Source: Anaerofustis stercorihominis
Lineage (GTDB): Bacteria > Bacillota > Clostridia > Eubacteriales > Anaerofustaceae
Length of the DNA stretch: 64,000 nucleotides
Direction: 5' to 3'
NCBI RefSeq assembly: GCF_024623185.1
Contig: NZ_JANJZK010000001.1
Coordinates: forward strand, 124,001 to 188,000
Shown piece after piece: positions 30,010 through 39,966 of this stretch. The notes below the pieces were generated by a model that was not told the DNA's origin, made no database searches, and worked only from the letters and a program-made list of their open reading frames with translations. How positions within the stretch are numbered: position 1 is the first letter of the stretch; each line of letters starts with the position of its first letter. Made by a program: the position numbers and the translations under genes.

Positions 30010-30711
30010 ATGGGTAAATATAATATATTAGTAGTAGACGACGATAAAGAAATTGTAAAAGCAATAAATATATATCTTTCCAATGAGGGATACAACATAT
30101 ATGAAGCTTATGACGGATATGAAGCATTAGGTATTTTAGAGAAGGAAGAAATCCATTTAATAGTACTAGATATAATGATGCCTAAATTAGATGGGATAGC
30201 AACCATTACCAAGGTTAGGGAAAAGCAAAATGTTCCTGTTATATTCTTGTCCGCAAAATCCGAGGATACCGATAAAATAATAGGACTAAATATCGGCGCC
30301 GATGATTATGTTACCAAGCCTTTTAATCCTTTGGAACTTATTGCAAGGGTTAAGTCTTTGATTAGAAGATATACGATACTCGGCAATATGAGTGAAATGG
30401 AAGCTGATAATATATTGACAACCGGTGGGCTCAGCTTGAATGAAGATACTACAGAGGTAACTGTTGACGGAGAAGAGGTAAAGCTTACCAGCACGGAATT
30501 TAAGATACTTAAGCTTTTAATGTCCAGACCTAATAAAGTGTTTTCCATGGAGGAAATATATGAAAAAGTTTGGGGAGAACTTTCTTATATGACGGATAAC
30601 ACTGTAGCTGTACATGTTAGGCATATAAGAGAAAAGATAGAAATCGATCCTAAAAATCCAAAATATTTAAAGGTGGTGTGGGGAATTGGATATAAAATTG
30701 AAAAACATTAA
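30010..30711 (+). CDS. OmpR/PhoB-family response regulator
   Basis: This 233-residue regulator has a receiver domain with acidic pocket DDD (residues 10-12), phosphoacceptor D54 in VLDIMMP and K103 in TKPF. A C-terminal winged-helix DNA-binding domain follows (EVKLTSTEFKILKLL, TVAVHVRHIREKIE). The ribosome binding site is GGGGGAAG. The sensor kinase gene overlaps its end, so the two work as a pair. The target genes are unknown; the unit is divergent from the ftsEX operon. Confidence 0.93.
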   Translation: MGKYNILVVDDDKEIVKAINIYLSNEGYNIYEAYDGYEALGILEKEEIHLIVLDIMMPKLDGIATITKVREKQNVPVIFLSAKSEDTDKIIGLNIGADDYVTKPFNPLELIARVKSLIRRYTILGNMSEMEADNILTTGGLSLNEDTTEVTVDGEEVKLTSTEFKILKLLMSRPNKVFSMEEIYEKVWGELSYMTDNTVAVHVRHIREKIEIDPKNPKYLKVVWGIGYKIEKH

Positions 30712-32704
30712 GGGAAATAAAAGTTTACTTAACCATATACTTTTGATAATAGCAATATTTATTACATTTAGTTTTGTAGTTAATAACGGCAATAAAGTCA
30801 TTTTAAATAAATCTTATCAAATGTTTGGTAATCATGCTTATCTTACTTCTTCCGACTATGGATACAAGTTAGATGAAATACATGCTTACTTAAATAATGC
30901 TTTATACAGAGAATATAAAGAAGTACATGATAATAATCCGAAGGCGGATCTATTTAAGAGTGTTGCCGATATGTCTCCAAAACTTAGAGGTGAGCTTAAG
31001 GCAAACGTTATAGGCAGTTACGGACCTGAAGTATCTTACTATATAATGGATAATAATACCGATGTAGGCTATACGAACTCAGGTGTCAGGACAGAAAAAG
31101 AATTTGAAAAAGAATATAAAAAGGAAGGTTATACTTTTATTAGTACGAGAAGCAATGTGACAAACACATATGTGAACGGAAATAAAGAATTATTAAATGT
31201 TTCTTATAACCTTACAAATAATTTTGATATGTATGATGACAATAATTCTTTTCTTGCAACTAAGATACTTCCGCCGACGGTACTTGTAGCTGTGAATCAT
31301 GACTTTACATCCGGAGGTTATTTCAAGGAAAGCTATGAAGCTTATAAATCAGATGGAGTATGGTCTACTTTAGGCTTTATTTTTTCCTCTATATTATTAT
31401 TATATCTATTGATTATAATAAAAAAGAAATATGGAATAAGAGATTCTCTGGAAGTAATAGGACAAATATTTAATAAAGTATTCCTGGAAATAAAATTATT
31501 TGTAGCTTATTTTATATATAATAATTTTTATAGTATAAACGGCACGATAACTGCAATATTATTTGTTTTTTGTCTATACTGTGCTGCAATGTATGATAAT
31601 GAAAATTTATTAAATGTATCTGTATATAAAAAGGTTATGGATATATATAAAAGTAATCAGGTCTTCAAACCATTTAGTAAAAAGGTACAGTCGAGAATGG
31701 TCAACGGGATTACAAGGTGTGTTGTTTCCGGCGGGATATTGATGTTTTCTTTTCTACTGTTGGCTATGGGGATATCGGGACCGTACGAGCAATTATATGC
31801 AGTAGTAATTGTAGCTTCTTTTATATATTTGATGTACTCGATATTTAGATTATATTCGTCTTCAATAAAGAGTGTAAAAGATATAGAAGATGTATATAAT
31901 TATACGGAAACGCTTGGACTAGGGCACTTCAATGAAAATATTTATTTAAGTGAAAACAGTTATTTTAAAGAAATAGAATATAATTTGAATGCACTTAACG
32001 ACCACATAAAAGAAGCAGTAGAAGAACAAGTGAAAAGTGAAAAAATGAAGAGCGAACTTGTAACTAATGTTTCACATGATTTAAAGACACCTCTTACATC
32101 TATTATTAATTATGTTGATTTAATGAAGAGGGAAGATATAAAGCCGGAAATTGCAAAGGAATATCTTGAAATACTCGATAGTAAATCTCAAAAATTAAAA
32201 AAATTGGTAGAGGATATATTTGATATTTCAAAGGCAACGAGCGGAAATATAGATTTGCATAATACAAATATCAATTTAAAAAGCTTGATTAATCAAAGCA
32301 TAAGTGAGTTTAGTGACAGTATAAATGAAAATAATCTTGAAGTTAGGGTAAATGTGGATGATGATGTTTATATTTATGCCGACGGAGAAAGGCTTGGAAG
32401 AGTACTTGAAAATTTAATTCAAAATGCGGTGAAATATTCACTCAAAGGAACAAGGATATATATAGACTTGGAAAAAGACGACCCGAGTATAACGATAAGT
32501 AATATATCTAATTATGAGATGGACTTTTCCAGTGAAGAAATTTTAACCAGATTTGCAAGAGCGGATAAAGCCAGAGATCTTGAAGGTTTTGGGTTGGGGC
32601 TTTCTATAGTTCAAAGTTTTACCGGCTTGATGGGAATTGACTTTAGTGTTACGATAGATAAAGATTTATTTAAAGCAAGGCTGGATTTTAAAAATAATAA
32701 ATAA
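30686..32704 (+). CDS. Sensor histidine kinase with large membrane region
   Basis: This 672-residue kinase has a first membrane helix near residues 14-33 and an extracellular domain of about 190 residues. Four or five further membrane helices lie between about 225 and 390. Then come a HAMP-like linker, the H box VSHDLKTPL with H464, the N box with N580 and the G box FGLGLS near 635-640. The first codon is a TTG at 30686 inside the regulator gene; a second TTG four codons later is possible. The extra membrane helices are unusual against simple two-helix kinases and may form part of the sensor. Confidence 0.88.
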   Translation: MDIKLKNIKGNKSLLNHILLIIAIFITFSFVVNNGNKVILNKSYQMFGNHAYLTSSDYGYKLDEIHAYLNNALYREYKEVHDNNPKADLFKSVADMSPKLRGELKANVIGSYGPEVSYYIMDNNTDVGYTNSGVRTEKEFEKEYKKEGYTFISTRSNVTNTYVNGNKELLNVSYNLTNNFDMYDDNNSFLATKILPPTVLVAVNHDFTSGGYFKESYEAYKSDGVWSTLGFIFSSILLLYLLIIIKKKYGIRDSLEVIGQIFNKVFLEIKLFVAYFIYNNFYSINGTITAILFVFCLYCAAMYDNENLLNVSVYKKVMDIYKSNQVFKPFSKKVQSRMVNGITRCVVSGGILMFSFLLLAMGISGPYEQLYAVVIVASFIYLMYSIFRLYSSSIKSVKDIEDVYNYTETLGLGHFNENIYLSENSYFKEIEYNLNALNDHIKEAVEEQVKSEKMKSELVTNVSHDLKTPLTSIINYVDLMKREDIKPEIAKEYLEILDSKSQKLKKLVEDIFDISKATSGNIDLHNTNINLKSLINQSISEFSDSINENNLEVRVNVDDDVYIYADGERLGRVLENLIQNAVKYSLKGTRIYIDLEKDDPSITISNISNYEMDFSSEEILTRFARADKARDLEGFGLGLSIVQSFTGLMGIDFSVTIDKDLFKARLDFKNNK

Positions 32705-34175: not shown

Positions 34176-34841
34176 TTAATTTGAAAGCTTTATAAGTTCA
34201 TCTTCATTTAGTATTTCTATACCTCCTCTGAAGAGTTTTATGATATCGTTACTTTCAAAGTGTTTAAGCATCCTGCTTACCACTTCTCTCGCACTTCCTA
34301 AGTGATTTGCTATTTCTTCATGTGTCATTTTTATTTTATCTTTTTCATCTCTATGGAAAAGTAAAAATTCCGCCAGTCTTGAATCGAATTTTTTAAATAA
34401 TACCTGCTCCAAAATCCACATTACATCCGATAATCTTGAAGACATAATGCTATTAACATACTTTGACATCTCGATATAATTATTAGCTATATCTTTATAT
34501 ATATGTGTAGGTAAAATAGCTGCTTTTGTTTCCTCCATTGATTCTATGAATATATCAAATGTTATGTCTTTCATCACGCATGAAGCGGACATCAAACATA
34601 TATCATTATCCATTAAATAATATAAACTGAGCTCTCTTCCTGTCTCCGATATCATGTAAGCCCTGAGCTTACCGCTTAAAATAAATATTAATCCAGTGCA
34701 TGTCACGGAGTTGTCGTGAACAGTTTCGCCTTTTTTAAATGTTTTAAATTTTAATTCTTTTAGTATTGTTTCCTGGCATTCATTTTTAAGACTGTCCCAA
34801 AACGGGAGAAAATCTTTCATATTAAAGTTATCATCATTCAT
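34176..34841 (-). CDS. Crp/Fnr-family transcriptional regulator
   Basis: This 221-residue regulator has a cyclic-nucleotide-binding-like sensor fold (about 15-125), a long dimer helix and a C-terminal winged HTH (MTHEEIANHLGSAREVVSRMLKHFE, about 172-196). The Cys residues do not form an Fnr-type N-terminal Fe-S motif; CLMSASC lies inside the sensor domain and might respond to redox state, which is a guess. It is divergent from trxA and shares a palindrome with it. Confidence 0.88.
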   Translation of the reverse strand: MNDDNFNMKDFLPFWDSLKNECQETILKELKFKTFKKGETVHDNSVTCTGLIFILSGKLRAYMISETGRELSLYYLMDNDICLMSASCVMKDITFDIFIESMEETKAAILPTHIYKDIANNYIEMSKYVNSIMSSRLSDVMWILEQVLFKKFDSRLAEFLLFHRDEKDKIKMTHEEIANHLGSAREVVSRMLKHFESNDIIKLFRGGIEILNEDELIKLSN

Positions 34842-34913
34842 ATTTTTACCGCCTTATTATATATTCTATAATTATTATTCTTATTTGTCCATTATGACTT
34901 TATATTTTTTTTA

Positions 34914-34928
34914 TGTGACTTTGTCACA
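34914..34928. promoter_or_regulatory. Crp/Fnr-type palindrome in the trxA promoter
   Basis: TGTGAC-TTT-GTCACA is a perfect inverted repeat. It is centred about 41 bp before the expected trxA start, given TATAAT at 34950-34955. Binding by the divergent Crp/Fnr regulator is inferred from position and from the family's preference for TGTGA half-sites. The spacer is one base shorter than in the classical CRP site. Confidence 0.65.
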
Positions 34929-34986
34929 GTCTTTTATTTTTTATTTGAATATAATATAAACAAATAACAGGAAAGAGGTAAGAAAA

Positions 34987-35301
34987 ATGAGTGTAATAGA
35001 TTTAACAAATAAAACCTTCAAGGAAGAAATAAATGATAATAGATTGGTGATAGTTGATTTTTGGGCTCCTTGGTGCGGACCATGCAGTGCTTTTTCTCCG
35101 GTAATAGATAAAGTGGCAGAAGAAAGAAATGATATAAAAGTATGCAAGGTCAACGTAGATGATGAAAGAATGCTTGCAATGAAGAATAAAGTAATGTCTA
35201 TCCCAACATTATTAATGTATAAAGACGGCAAGCAAGTAAAAAGAACACAAGGTGCCATGACAAAACAAGAACTTTTAGAAGTTATCGACCAAGTAAAATA
35301 A
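34987..35301 (+). CDS. trxA: Thioredoxin
   Basis: This 104-residue thioredoxin has the active site WAPWCGPC with C30 and C33, the cis-Pro turn SIPTLLMY and a normal fold length. It reduces protein disulphides in the cytoplasm. The ribosome binding site is AAAGAGG. The promoter shows TATAAT at 34950-34955 and a Crp/Fnr-type palindrome at about -41, suggesting activation by the divergent regulator. No thioredoxin reductase gene is adjacent. Confidence 0.94.
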   Translation: MSVIDLTNKTFKEEINDNRLVIVDFWAPWCGPCSAFSPVIDKVAEERNDIKVCKVNVDDERMLAMKNKVMSIPTLLMYKDGKQVKRTQGAMTKQELLEVIDQVK

Positions 35302-35333
35302 ATAATATATAAACCTTTAAAATTAAATTGTTT

Positions 35334-35360
35334 AAAAAAGAGCGAAAGCTCTTTTTTATT
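35334..35360 (+). terminator. Terminator after trxA
   Basis: A 10-bp stem AAAAAAGAGC/GCTCTTTTTT with a GAAA tetraloop. Confidence 0.93.
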
Positions 35361-35674
35361 ATCATTAATATGTAAGTCTGGTTGATTGTATATTTAAGTT
35401 ATAATATTTTACTGTATAATATAAAGGATTTATGATTTATTAAAGGAACAAATAGCCGAAAAAATATAAATTTATTGTAAATGTAAGATGTTTATTGAGT
35501 TTTTAAAATGTAACATAATAAAGTTTTAGAAGATGAAAAGAAAGATCATTTAAATTTTCTTTTTTGTTAAAAATATCTAAGGTATATTATGTAAAACCGA
35601 ACAAATTTTCTAAAAATTTGTTGTTATTTTAAAAAATTTGTGATAATATCATATTAATGTTTAAGGAGGATATT
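35361..35674. other. Intergenic region upstream of uvrA
   Basis: This spacer of about 310 bp is AT-rich. Its distal end holds a perfect palindrome (35600-35622) overlapping a GAAC-AAAT-TTTC half LexA-like site, and a possible -10 GATAAT at 35642-35647. I see no gene in the rest. Confidence 0.5.
35599..35622. promoter_or_regulatory. Palindrome and LexA-like half box upstream of uvrA
   Basis: AACAAATTTT and AAAATTTGTT face each other around CTA. The left part, GAACAAAT, is identical to the left part of the LexA-like box before recA. It lies near a possible -35/-10 pair and 50 bp before the uvrA ribosome binding site. SOS control is expected for uvrA, but the right half (TTTC) is a poor match. 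Confidence 0.4.
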
Positions 35675-38485
35675 ATGACAGATAAAATTGTTATAAGAGG
35701 TGCCAGAGAAAACAACCTTAAAAATATAGATTTAACTATACCGAGAGACAAGCTTATTGTATTTACCGGACTGTCAGGTTCAGGTAAATCTTCTCTTGCT
35801 TTTGATACCATATATGCAGAAGGACAGAGAAGGTATGTAGAAAGTCTTTCTGCGTATGCGAGAATGTTTTTGGGTCAAACGAATAAACCCGACGTAGATA
35901 ATATTGAAGGGCTAAGTCCGTCTATTTCCATAGATCAGAAGACTACTAATCGTAATCCACGTTCCACAGTTGGAACGGTAACGGAAATATATGATTACTT
36001 CAGATTGTTATTTGCCAGAATAGGAACACCTTATTGTCCTAAATGCGGCAAGAAAATAGAAAGCCAGAGTATAGATACTATAATTGATGATATTTTATCT
36101 ATGGAAGAGGGTACTAAAATACAAATATTAGCTCCCGTTATAAGAGGAGAAAAGGGGACTCAAAAGAATTTTCTTACTCATTTAAAGAAGGAAGGTTATC
36201 TTAGAGTATTTATAGACGGTGGACTTTATGACCTTGATGATGAAATAAAACTTCCCAAGAATAAGAAGCATGATATAAGTGTTGTAATAGACAGGCTTAA
36301 AGTAAGGGACAAAATAAAATCAAGACTTAATGATTCCGTCGAGACAGCATTAAACTTGAGTGACGGATTGGTCATATGTAAAACTGATGATGAAGAAAAA
36401 TTGTACTCGGAAAAATTTGCCTGCATGGACTGTGGGATTGCTATGGATAAGCCCGAACCGAGAAGCTTTTCATTCAATTCACCTTTTGGTATGTGTATGG
36501 AATGTAACGGGATAGGTTATCATCAAACCATCGATCCCGAACTTGTTATTCCCGACAGAAGTATCTCCATAAACGAAGGCGTTCTTTCCAATTTTGTAAG
36601 CAGTGACGACAGCACTTACTATTCTGTAATTGTCAAAACTTTGGTAGAGAAATATAATTTCTCTATGGATAAACCGTTGGATGAAGCAAGCGACGAATTT
36701 ATGGAGGCTCTTCTTTACGGAGATAAAGATAAAATAAAAATCGGATTTAATTCTCATTTCGGAGGGTATAAGGAAAGAGAAATCGTATTTGAAGGAATAG
36801 TAAATAATTTAGAAAGAAGATACTTTGAAAGCAGCAGTGAGTATGTAAAGGCTAAGTTTAGTAAATTTTTGTCTAATATTACTTGTAATGCATGTAAAGG
36901 AAAAAGACTTAATGACAATTCTTTGAGTGTAAAGATCAATGGAGTCAATATTATTGAGCTTACGGAGATGTCTATAAGAGACTGTAAAAAGTTCATTGAT
37001 AATCTTGTTTTAAATGAAAATGAAGCTAAAATAGCGGAACTTGTCCTTAGGGAAATAAAATCAAGGCTTGGTTTTTTAAATGATGTTGGACTAAGTTATC
37101 TTACTTTGGACAGAGCTGCTTCTACATTATCCGGAGGAGAAAGCCAGAGAATAAGACTTGCCACTCAAATAGGTTCTAAGCTTACCGGAGTACTTTATGT
37201 TTTAGATGAACCCAGTATAGGGCTTCATCAACGAGACAATGAGATGTTACTTAATACATTAAGAGAGCTTACGGATATAGGTAATACAGTTATCGTAGTA
37301 GAGCACGATGAAGATACAATGAGAGAAGCCGATCATATAGTAGATATAGGTCCGGGCGCAGGTATTCATGGCGGAGAAGTTATAGCAAACGGTCCTTTGG
37401 AAGAAATAATAGATAACAAAAATTCTATAACCGCCGATTATTTGTCAGGCAGGAAAAAAATAGACGTTCCTAAGGAAAGGCAGAAAGGCAACGGACAGTA
37501 TCTTGAAATAATCGGAGCTAAAGAAAACAATTTAAAGAATATTGATGTAAAATTTGAGCTTGGGAATATGACTTGCGTTACAGGAGTTTCCGGATCGGGA
37601 AAAAGTACGTTAATAAATGAAATATTATTTAAGGCTCTTAGAAAGAAGCTTTTGGGTTCTGTAGAAAAACCCGGAAAACATAAAGAAATAAGAGGCTGGG
37701 AAAACCTTGATAAGATAATAGATATAGACCAGTCGCCTATAGGGCGTACTCCGAGATCAAATCCTGCTACTTATACCGGGATGTTCGATCTTATAAGAGA
37801 TGTATTTGCTTCGACAAATGAAGCGAAAATGAGAGGATATAAGAAAGGTCGTTTCAGCTTTAATGTAAAAGGCGGAAGATGTGAGCATTGTAAGGGAGAT
37901 GGTATAATAAAAATAGAAATGCATTTCCTTCCCGATGTTTATGTTCCTTGTGAAGTTTGTAAAGGGCATAGATATAATGATGAAACTCTTCAAATAAAAT
38001 ATAAGGGCAAAAATATTGCAGAAGTACTTGATATGAGTGTTGAAGAAGCTTTGACATTCTTTGAAAATATTCCTTCGATTAAATCTAAAGTACAGACTTT
38101 ATATGATGTGGGACTTGGATATATTAAACTGGGACAGCCTTCTACGACCCTTTCCGGCGGAGAGGCTCAAAGGATCAAGCTTGCAACGTATCTTTCAAAA
38201 AGACAGACGGGCAAGACTTTATATATTTTGGATGAACCCACTACGGGGCTTCATATGGAAGATGTAAAGAAGCTTCTTGAAGTGCTGTACAGATTAAGAG
38301 AAGGCGGAAATACCATACTCATAATAGAACATAATTTAGATGTCATAAAATGTGCAGACTATTTGATTGATTTGGGTCCCGAAGGAGGAGACGGCGGCGG
38401 AACCGTGATTGCAACGGGTACTCCGGAAGAAGTTGCCAAGGTCAAAAAAAGTTACACTGGACAGTTTTTGAAGAAAATATTATAA
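35675..38485 (+). CDS. uvrA: Excinuclease ABC subunit A
   Basis: UvrA recognises DNA damage and loads UvrB. The 936-residue product has two ABC modules: Walker A GLSGSGKS near residue 30, first zinc finger CPKC...CMDC...CMEC, signatures LSGGESQR and LSGGEAQR, second Walker A GVSGSGKS and the C-terminal zinc finger with CEHC and CEVC. I start at 35675 with AAGGAGG at 35663-35669. uvrB is not in the window; in many Firmicutes it would sit just upstream. Confidence 0.97.
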
Positions 38486-38730: not shown

Positions 38731-39966
38731 ATGAAAGCAACGATACTTTGTATAGGTGATGAAGTTTTATGCGGAGATGTTTTGAATTCAAACGGAACTT
38801 TTTTTGCAAAAGAACTTACAGAAATAGGAATAGAAGTTGTAAAGCATGTAGTAGTAAGTGACGATGAAGATATGGTAGAAGGTGCATTCAACGATGCGGT
38901 GAATATAAGTGATTTGATTATTACTACCGGAGGGCTTGGTCCTACACTCGACGATATGACAAAAGAGGCAATAGCTAAAGTCACCGGAAGACCGCTTGAA
39001 GAAAATGCAGAAGCAAGACATCATGTTGAGACTTATTTCAAAAATAAAGAAAAAGATTTTGTTCTTACTCCAAATAATTTTAGACAGGCACTATTCCCAA
39101 AAGGAGCAAAGATACTTAGTAATGACAGGGGAACAGCCCCCGGTGCACTTCTTGAAATAGATGATAAGATGATCATAATGCTTCCCGGACCTCCAAGGGA
39201 AAATACTTATATGTACAACAAGCATATCAAAGAATATTTAATGAATAAATTAAATAAATTCTTTGCCGTAAAGGACTATATGACTGCGGGAATAGGAGAG
39301 TCTGAAATTGAGTACAGAATGAGAGATTTGCTTCCTAATCTTGAGGGTGTAAATGTAAATACATATTTTAATGACAGCGGTGTTAAAGTCAAGGCAGTAT
39401 CCAAGGCTGATAATCTAAAACACGCAATTGAAAATTTGGATAAAATAGATGATATTATAATGAAAAATTTCAAAGAATATATCTATTCCGTTAAAGGTGA
39501 AACACTTCCTCAAAAATTTGTTAATATACTTAAAAGTATGGGGCTCACATTCTCATGTGCAGAGTCCTGTACAGGCGGACTTCTTGCAAGTTATTTAACA
39601 GAGATACCCGGAGTAAGCGAAGTATTTATGGGCAGTGCCGTTACTTATACAAATGAAATCAAACACTCTCTTCTCGGTGTTAAAAATGAAACATTGGAGA
39701 AATATGGAGCGGTGAGTTCTCAGTGTGTGGAAGAGATGGCTCTCGGTTGTGCTGAAAGGTTTAATTCCGATGTTGCTATATCAATAAGCGGAATTGCGGG
39801 GCCGGGGGGAGGCACTCCTAAGAAGCCTGTTGGAACTGTTTATATGGGATTTTATTATAAAGGACAAGTTTCTTCAACTAAATATAATATAACCGGAGAA
39901 AGAAAAAGAGTTCAGACACGAAGTGCATATTATTCGATAAATAATATGTTAAAAATAATGCAATAA
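38731..39966 (+). CDS. cinA: Competence/damage-inducible protein CinA
   Basis: This 411-residue protein joins an N-terminal molybdopterin-binding-like domain (CIGDEVLCGD, TTGGLGPTLDD) with a C-terminal NMN amidohydrolase domain (SCAESCTGGLLAS, GIAGPGGGTPKKPVGTVY). Two-domain CinA proteins act in pyridine-nucleotide recycling; NMN deamidase activity belongs to the C-terminal domain. It lies 69 bp upstream of recA in the usual Firmicute order. The ribosome binding site is AAGGAGATATT. Confidence 0.94.
   Translation: MKATILCIGDEVLCGDVLNSNGTFFAKELTEIGIEVVKHVVVSDDEDMVEGAFNDAVNISDLIITTGGLGPTLDDMTKEAIAKVTGRPLEENAEARHHVETYFKNKEKDFVLTPNNFRQALFPKGAKILSNDRGTAPGALLEIDDKMIIMLPGPPRENTYMYNKHIKEYLMNKLNKFFAVKDYMTAGIGESEIEYRMRDLLPNLEGVNVNTYFNDSGVKVKAVSKADNLKHAIENLDKIDDIIMKNFKEYIYSVKGETLPQKFVNILKSMGLTFSCAESCTGGLLASYLTEIPGVSEVFMGSAVTYTNEIKHSLLGVKNETLEKYGAVSSQCVEEMALGCAERFNSDVAISISGIAGPGGGTPKKPVGTVYMGFYYKGQVSSTKYNITGERKRVQTRSAYYSINNMLKIMQ

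Follow-up and report, generated by a model that had tools for sequence, protein, structure and literature searches.

What controls the thioredoxin gene trxA in the window, the whole stretch of 64,000 nucleotides analysed here, is a question raised by the 145 bp gap that separates it from a divergent gene for a Crp/Fnr-superfamily regulator. The gap contains a perfect palindrome, which might be the binding site of the neighbouring regulator. In our judgement it is probable (about 0.8) that the palindrome is the operator of this regulator and that trxA is activated from it, in class II fashion, under thiol-redox or sulfane-sulfur stress; we infer binding, activation and signal from comparative evidence. 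Sequence comparisons, reported below, give good support to the operator, to its assignment to this regulator and to the geometry.

Palindrome and trxA promoter in the window

The operator, TGTGAC-TTT-GTCACA (TGTGACTTTGTCACA), is located at 34914..34928 with its centre at 34921, identified by sequence match with comparative support. At 34914-34928, TGTGACTTTGTCACA has 0 mismatches to the palindrome, as the original prediction had stated. Its placing between a Crp/Fnr gene (34176-34841, minus strand) and a divergent trxA (34987-35301, plus strand) also agrees with the coordinates and strands found. TGTGA-N5-TCACA occurs once in the window, compared with a mean of 0.07 per 64 kb in 300 mononucleotide shuffles. 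With up to three mismatches allowed, the 15-mer has three matches in the window, which is not unusual (17 of 100 dinucleotide shuffles reach three). Perfect 6+3+6 palindromes are frequent (42 in the window), so that palindromy alone carries little weight; sequence, place and conservation are what count.

The product of trxA is a thioredoxin of 104 aa with the active site WCGPC in the translation (TIGR01068, 119.4 bits against an NCBIfam cut-off of 96.8). The gene is preceded by a probable ribosome-binding site, GGAAAGAGG (34969..34977, plus strand, by inspection), and followed by a terminator-like hairpin (35333..35358, plus strand, consensus match). A -10 hexamer, TATAAT, is located at 34950-34955 (plus strand), 29 bp from the operator centre. 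Together with a predicted initiator CA at 34961-34962 (plus strand) it leads to A34962 as the predicted start (+1) and places the operator centre at -41. Sites of class II activators are centred near -41.5. A promoter-like TGGACA-17-TAGAAT on the minus strand (34863..34891, consensus match only) is a possible promoter of the regulator gene; if so, the operator would lie about 64 bp before the regulator start.

Site, spacing and target genes in relatives

Three sets of loci were collected through the regulator alone, independently of the site. The order set comprises 30 loci (37 regulator matches in 34 genomes of the same order, of which 30 are given as loci), plus a paralogue locus (L021) without a thioredoxin match. 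The named set holds the best 80 of 591 relatives from an alignment-based search; a query with the single protein found nothing. The held-out set consists of 29 loci from a phylum-wide draw, in which 35 genomes, including the window's own, had a match. No held-out regulator exceeds 82% identity to those of the discovery sets, and 11 of the 12 with a thioredoxin gene lie at 51-69%.

A thioredoxin match was found near the regulator in 19 of 30 order, 46 of 80 named and 12 of 29 held-out loci. GTGAY-N3-RTCAC, with at most one mismatch and within 330 bp upstream, precedes 77 of the 79 thioredoxin genes near regulator relatives: 19 of 20 in the order set, 46 of 47 in the named set and all 12 in the held-out set, where shuffled sequences lead one to expect 0.15, 1.35 and 0.35, respectively (about 2 of 79 in total). 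The site is missing from the second gene copy of L041 and from a thioredoxin of 26% identity in L075. When the upstream limit was set to 200 bp, the first two sets gave 63 of 67 genes, compared with 0 of 67 for reversed sequences. Within the DNA examined around each locus, the strict core is absent from 22 of the 80 named and 15 of the 29 held-out loci.

The original prediction had proposed to look for the palindrome upstream of trxA in relatives with the same divergent pair. The conservation upstream of trxA was borne out in these 77 of 79 genes, but the divergent arrangement is the exception: 53 of the 77 loci are convergent, 13 are divergent as in the window and 11 have both genes in the same direction. 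A tie between the site and the divergent layout was thereby discarded; in L019, where about 0.5 kb lies between regulator and trxA, the site stays with trxA.

The spacing of the half-sites is characteristic. In the 80 named loci GTGAY-N3-RTCAC occurs 77 times, in 58 loci, compared with 0-5 times for each of the other spacings between 0 and 10 and once in the reversed control. In the held-out set the N3 core occurs 17 times, in 14 of 29 loci, and other spacings from 0 to 8 occur 0-2 times. Classical CRP sites have the form TGTGA-N6-TCACA. Since only the 3-bp inner spacing is enriched, TGTGA-N5-TCACA can be regarded as the form of this subfamily. The 5-bp spacer pointed out in the original prediction is thus real in the window and typical of the whole regulator subfamily, in named and held-out loci.

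The promoter position was examined in 56 thioredoxin sites, made non-redundant by dropping 7 near-identical ones of 63; 4 of 67 matches with more than one mismatch had been left out beforehand. The match to TATAAT has a mean of 4.55 of 6 at +29 from the operator centre and is at most 2.8 elsewhere from +11 to +54. Of the 56 sites, 37 have C at +40 and 50 have A at +41. Counted without the preference for offset 29 in ties that an earlier tally had contained, the -10 lies at +28 or +29 in about 17 of 19 order, 37 of 46 named and 11 of 12 held-out cases. The centre at about -41 that had been predicted for the window agrees with its TATAAT and CA, and by computation the positions that place the site there are conserved in relatives, which speaks against a shifted start. 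No conserved -35 hexamer was found in the profile of the 56 thioredoxin sites, which have RGAA after the site instead. As judged by the predicted positions, the promoter layout is likely that of class II activation. G is present at +8 of the operator centre in 54 of 56 trx promoters, followed by AA, with no matching C at -8; the G and AA at +8 to +10 may extend the operator on one side or belong to the promoter.

Occurrence of the site follows that of the regulator. In the order, 32 thioredoxin genes were sampled from regulator-minus genomes (no match at E 1e-25; genes hand-picked from 29 of 33 such genomes, some containing weak regulator relatives, with short upstream DNA for L227 and L251), and 31 of them lack any site at less than two mismatches. 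The same applies to all eight other thioredoxin genes of regulator-bearing genomes, including the second one of the window's genome. The exception is genome G021, which has a perfect site upstream of trxA and no regulator at E 0.001; this site is possibly an orphan operator left after regulator loss. It lies at 2453-2467 of locus L274 (G021:C19:14500-20500).

At the level of genomes, regulator and site plus -10 are both present in 30 of 67 genomes of the order, the regulator only in 4, the site only in 2 and neither in 31 (p 2e-12). In the phylum draw the site plus -10 was found in 18 of 35 regulator-bearing and 19 of 363 other genomes (p 5e-12); both p values count related genomes as independent. 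Counted by genus, the order gives 7/4/1/14 (p 0.003). Reversed controls gave 2 of 67 genomes in the order and 14 of 398 in the phylum; the genus counts and the 2 and 14 were tallied by hand from the result tables. Four of the 34 regulator-bearing genomes of the order lack the strict pattern, and three of these four have no relaxed site in 3.6 kb at their loci.

Target genes were taken from 127 site-orientations in 139 loci, comprising the core or one-letter variants with a -10 at +28 to +30. Gene starts were set by simple rules, and classes were assigned by likeness to representatives, most of them named by Pfam or NCBIfam (SDR by inspection). The first genes are 74 thioredoxin, 14 ferredoxin, 7 TrxB, 4 rhodanese, 4 CoA-disulfide reductase, 4 DUF302, 3 rubredoxin/rubrerythrin-like, 2 peroxiredoxin and 2 regulator genes, and one each of OsmC, CcdA, SDR and SiR/C_GCAxxG (sulfite-reductase-like); 9 were assigned to no class. 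As regards autoregulation, the regulator gene itself is faced by only 2 of the 127 site-orientations with a proper -10. A thioredoxin-rhodanese-CoA-disulfide reductase operon is present in L127, and rhodanese-CoA-disulfide reductase operons in L080, L081, L091 and L102; 29 of the 80 named loci carry CoA-disulfide reductase or rhodanese in the neighbourhood of the regulator. Behind 13 of the 14 small ferredoxin targets comes another frame, about 180-200 aa long and resembling a membrane protein.

Small ferredoxins with two 4Fe-4S-like motifs were noted at L127:8128-8912, L088:5639-6447 and similar places. The distant members L161, L164, L165 and L166 have a site near the regulator followed by DUF302-like proteins (assigned by Pfam in L166 only). 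In a genome of genus g15, a site plus -10 at L047:1405 precedes an OsmC-like gene adjoining the regulator, and similar sites are present in G041, G042 and G044.

In the window's own genome the trxA site is the only match outside reading frames, as found with a strict pattern in a genome 92% complete in 65 contigs, where a site could be missed. Eight other TGTGAYNNNRTYAC matches all lie inside reading frames, and a wider regulon built on them was rejected. In the congener G001 another site was found, in front of a frame that resembles CoA-disulfide reductase in sequence. The window also contains an SDR gene 35% identical to the SDR behind the site in L079; the sole core site in the window is that of trxA. 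The description of the regulator as dedicated to thioredoxin therefore holds for the promoter sites found in the window's genome (trxA only), but not for relatives, which have several targets.

The regulator, its predicted signal and competing readings

Domain and structure matches identify the product of 34176-34841 (minus strand, 221 aa) as a Crp/Fnr-superfamily regulator and a relative of PDB 3DV8. A Crp-type helix-turn-helix domain is present (HTH_Crp_2, 62.1 bits against a Pfam cut-off of 27). The cNMP_binding match (24.3 bits) is under its cut-off of 27.5, and the cAMP-binding phosphate cassette is not seen, the R-S of the Vfr cassette having no counterpart in the alignment. The NCBIfam Fnr model gave 43.3 bits against a cut-off of 228. 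An AlphaFold model (mean pLDDT 84.7), compared with solved structures, has the N-terminal beta-roll, long helix and C-terminal wHTH fold of the superfamily; residues 85-93 are under pLDDT 50, and the C82-C88 loop overlaps this least certain part. The nearest solved structure is 3DV8 (EUBREC_1222 of Eubacterium rectale; phmmer E 6e-58), with Z 24.6, rmsd 3.0 over 212 residues and 41% identity to the model, followed by 2gau (Z 19.2) and by chains of CRP, CooA and FNR (about Z 16-18). 3DV8 is the crystal structure of a putative regulator, for which no function turned up in the searches made.

Three cysteines of the sensor domain are conserved, C48, C82 and C88 (C48 codon to C88 codon 34578..34700, minus strand, by alignment). 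Among the 139 loci, in which the window's gene (= L017) was counted once, C48 is present in 138, C82 in 129 and C88 in 136. The recognition-helix residues R185, E186 and R190 (R185 and E186 to R190 codons 34272..34289, minus strand, by alignment) are invariant in 139 of 139, and all six residues are invariant in an alignment of 19 sequences. R-E-x3-R is the CRP pattern that reads TGTGA. As judged from these alignments, the regulator belongs to an uncharacterised Crp/Fnr subfamily, here named the 3DV8-like cysteine-triad subfamily. A relaxed site was found in 95 of 126 loci with the full triad, compared with 3 of 13 without. Of the ten triad-less loci without a relaxed site, L160 and L162 have a one-mismatch site before trxA, so triad and site are not strictly coupled. 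Glycine replaces C82 in the regulators of L151, L153, L157, L158, L160 and L162; in L160 and L162 the retained site reads TGTGAGCAAGTCACG.

The following mechanism is proposed. A dimer of the regulator would read two TGTGA half-sites, 1 bp closer to each other than in classical CRP/FNR sites, via the R-E-(x3)-R helix. Bound at -41, it would adjoin RNA polymerase, recruit it and activate trxA as a class II activator, at a promoter that has a good -10 but lacks a conserved -35 hexamer. The regulator would probably become active upon oxidation or persulfidation of protein thiols or low-molecular-weight thiols, thereby raising thioredoxin; C48/C82/C88, in the part of the protein that corresponds to the cAMP-binding region of CRP, may sense the signal. 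In relatives it would also raise TrxB, CoA-disulfide reductase, rhodanese, ferredoxin and peroxide-removing proteins.

The signal, probably thiol oxidation or sulfane sulfur, is the weakest step of this mechanism; redox sensing through the conserved cysteines, which the original prediction had suggested, is plausible. Sulfane sulfur is favoured by the target list, which resembles the set of CoA-persulfide reductase and rhodaneses under CstR described in PMC9405070. Oxygen or peroxide is favoured by the peroxiredoxin and rubrerythrin-like targets. A more general proposal, to which we give somewhat less than an even chance, is that in this widespread Clostridia subfamily of Crp/Fnr proteins the region of the cyclic-nucleotide pocket became a cysteine-triad sensor of disulfide or sulfane-sulfur stress, and the protein a specific activator for thioredoxin and its partners, acting through a 15-bp operator (TGTGA-N5-TCACA) that differs from classical CRP/FNR sites.

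The same regulator and operator could instead serve a gas or oxygen sensor, in which the signal is the ligand of a bound cofactor, either heme or an iron-sulfur cluster held by cysteines. The CLMSASC loop of the regulator aligns with GDMFCMHSGC of CooA, the stretch in which CooA has its heme ligands; one cysteine is shared, but the CooA histidine has no match in the alignment and overall identity is 24% (2hkx). A cluster could be held by the three conserved cysteines, although the four-cysteine arrangement of FNR is absent. Heme binding has been reported (PMC6955866) for PgRsp, a Crp/Fnr protein of P. gingivalis for which 3DV8 served as modelling template. The CooA-like loop and this report make a cofactor a serious rival, albeit a less likely one when set against the many targets that lean to thiol or sulfane-sulfur chemistry, 14 ferredoxin genes among the targets notwithstanding.

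Whether the regulator activates or represses trxA was judged from the geometry, by which activation is likely. Repression from the operator, with release upon oxidation, has a low probability: a site touching the -35 region could block polymerase, but the exact -41 spacing to -10 and CA is kept over the 56 non-redundant promoters, where a repressor would tolerate more positions, and the site profile has no conserved -35 hexamer. Use of the site by a different Crp/Fnr protein of the window's genome is very improbable. Two more clear HTH_Crp_2 matches do exist there, one in a frame with stops; from genome to genome, however, the site accompanies this regulator subfamily, and the one further match to the regulator in the window's genome has 20% identity. 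A chance palindrome, or an RNA hairpin or terminator between the divergent genes, has a next to negligible probability. A terminator scan does flag the operator as a stem plus T-rich tail, and 6+3+6 palindromes are frequent in the window, but its sequence, spacing and place in the promoter are shared across families, and 3' of the site the consensus reads RGAA instead of a series of T.

Comparison with known systems

The proposed thiol-responsive activator shares with CRP of E. coli the fold, the R-E-x3-R helix with its TGTGA half-site and the position near -41.5. It differs from CRP in the spacer (5 here, 6 in CRP sites), in a cyclic-nucleotide domain that is below the Pfam cut-off, in the cysteines found in the region of the ligand pocket, and in its thiol-redox targets. 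With FNR it has in common the superfamily, a cysteine-bearing sensor domain and the redox theme. FNR holds a [4Fe-4S] cluster by four cysteines, three of them N-terminal, and reads the half-site TTGAT, whereas the half-site here is TGTGA; the regulator lacks the N-terminal three-cysteine cluster plus central cysteine, only cysteines 48, 82 and 88 being conserved. Cysteine positions are the same in 3DV8. The likeness to CooA lies in the cysteine loop, located where CooA has its heme-ligand loop.

To our knowledge, it is poorly known how thioredoxin is adjusted to oxygen or sulfur stress in strict gut anaerobes. In searches of open-access papers, which covered the slash spelling 'Crp/Fnr' poorly, no description of this regulon or operator was recognised. 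The cst-like operon of Enterococcus faecalis under CstR encodes a CoA-disulfide/CoA-persulfide reductase and rhodaneses and responds to sulfane sulfur, as stated in PMC9405070. These enzymes are targets in the putative regulon described here as well; CstR, however, is described as a di-thiol repressor and not a Crp/Fnr protein (PMC9405070), and the main target here is thioredoxin. 'crp' and 'fnr' have 0 occurrences in the main text of PMC10880999.

On comparative grounds, the conserved pair of operator and regulator, the family-specific spacing and the coherent regulon are taken to be real, within a known superfamily and without constituting a new kind of system. The pairing of regulator and site recurs in many Clostridia and points to an undescribed switch for the protection of protein thiols in anaerobes. 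If this is true, the cysteine-triad activator would do for strict anaerobes what thiol-stress activators do for aerobes. The system offers a defined regulator with a solved relative, an exact operator of unusual spacing, a promoter geometry and a testable list of targets for many species, and the operator pattern can be used to search genomes for the regulon. It would also present a case of a Crp/Fnr dimer coping with half-sites 1 bp nearer to each other.

Elsewhere in the window, a large frame at 30686-32704 (plus strand) resembles a membrane sensor histidine kinase by inspection. Downstream of trxA, inspection of the translations identified a uvrA-like frame at 35657-38485 and a CinA-type-like frame at 38731-39966.
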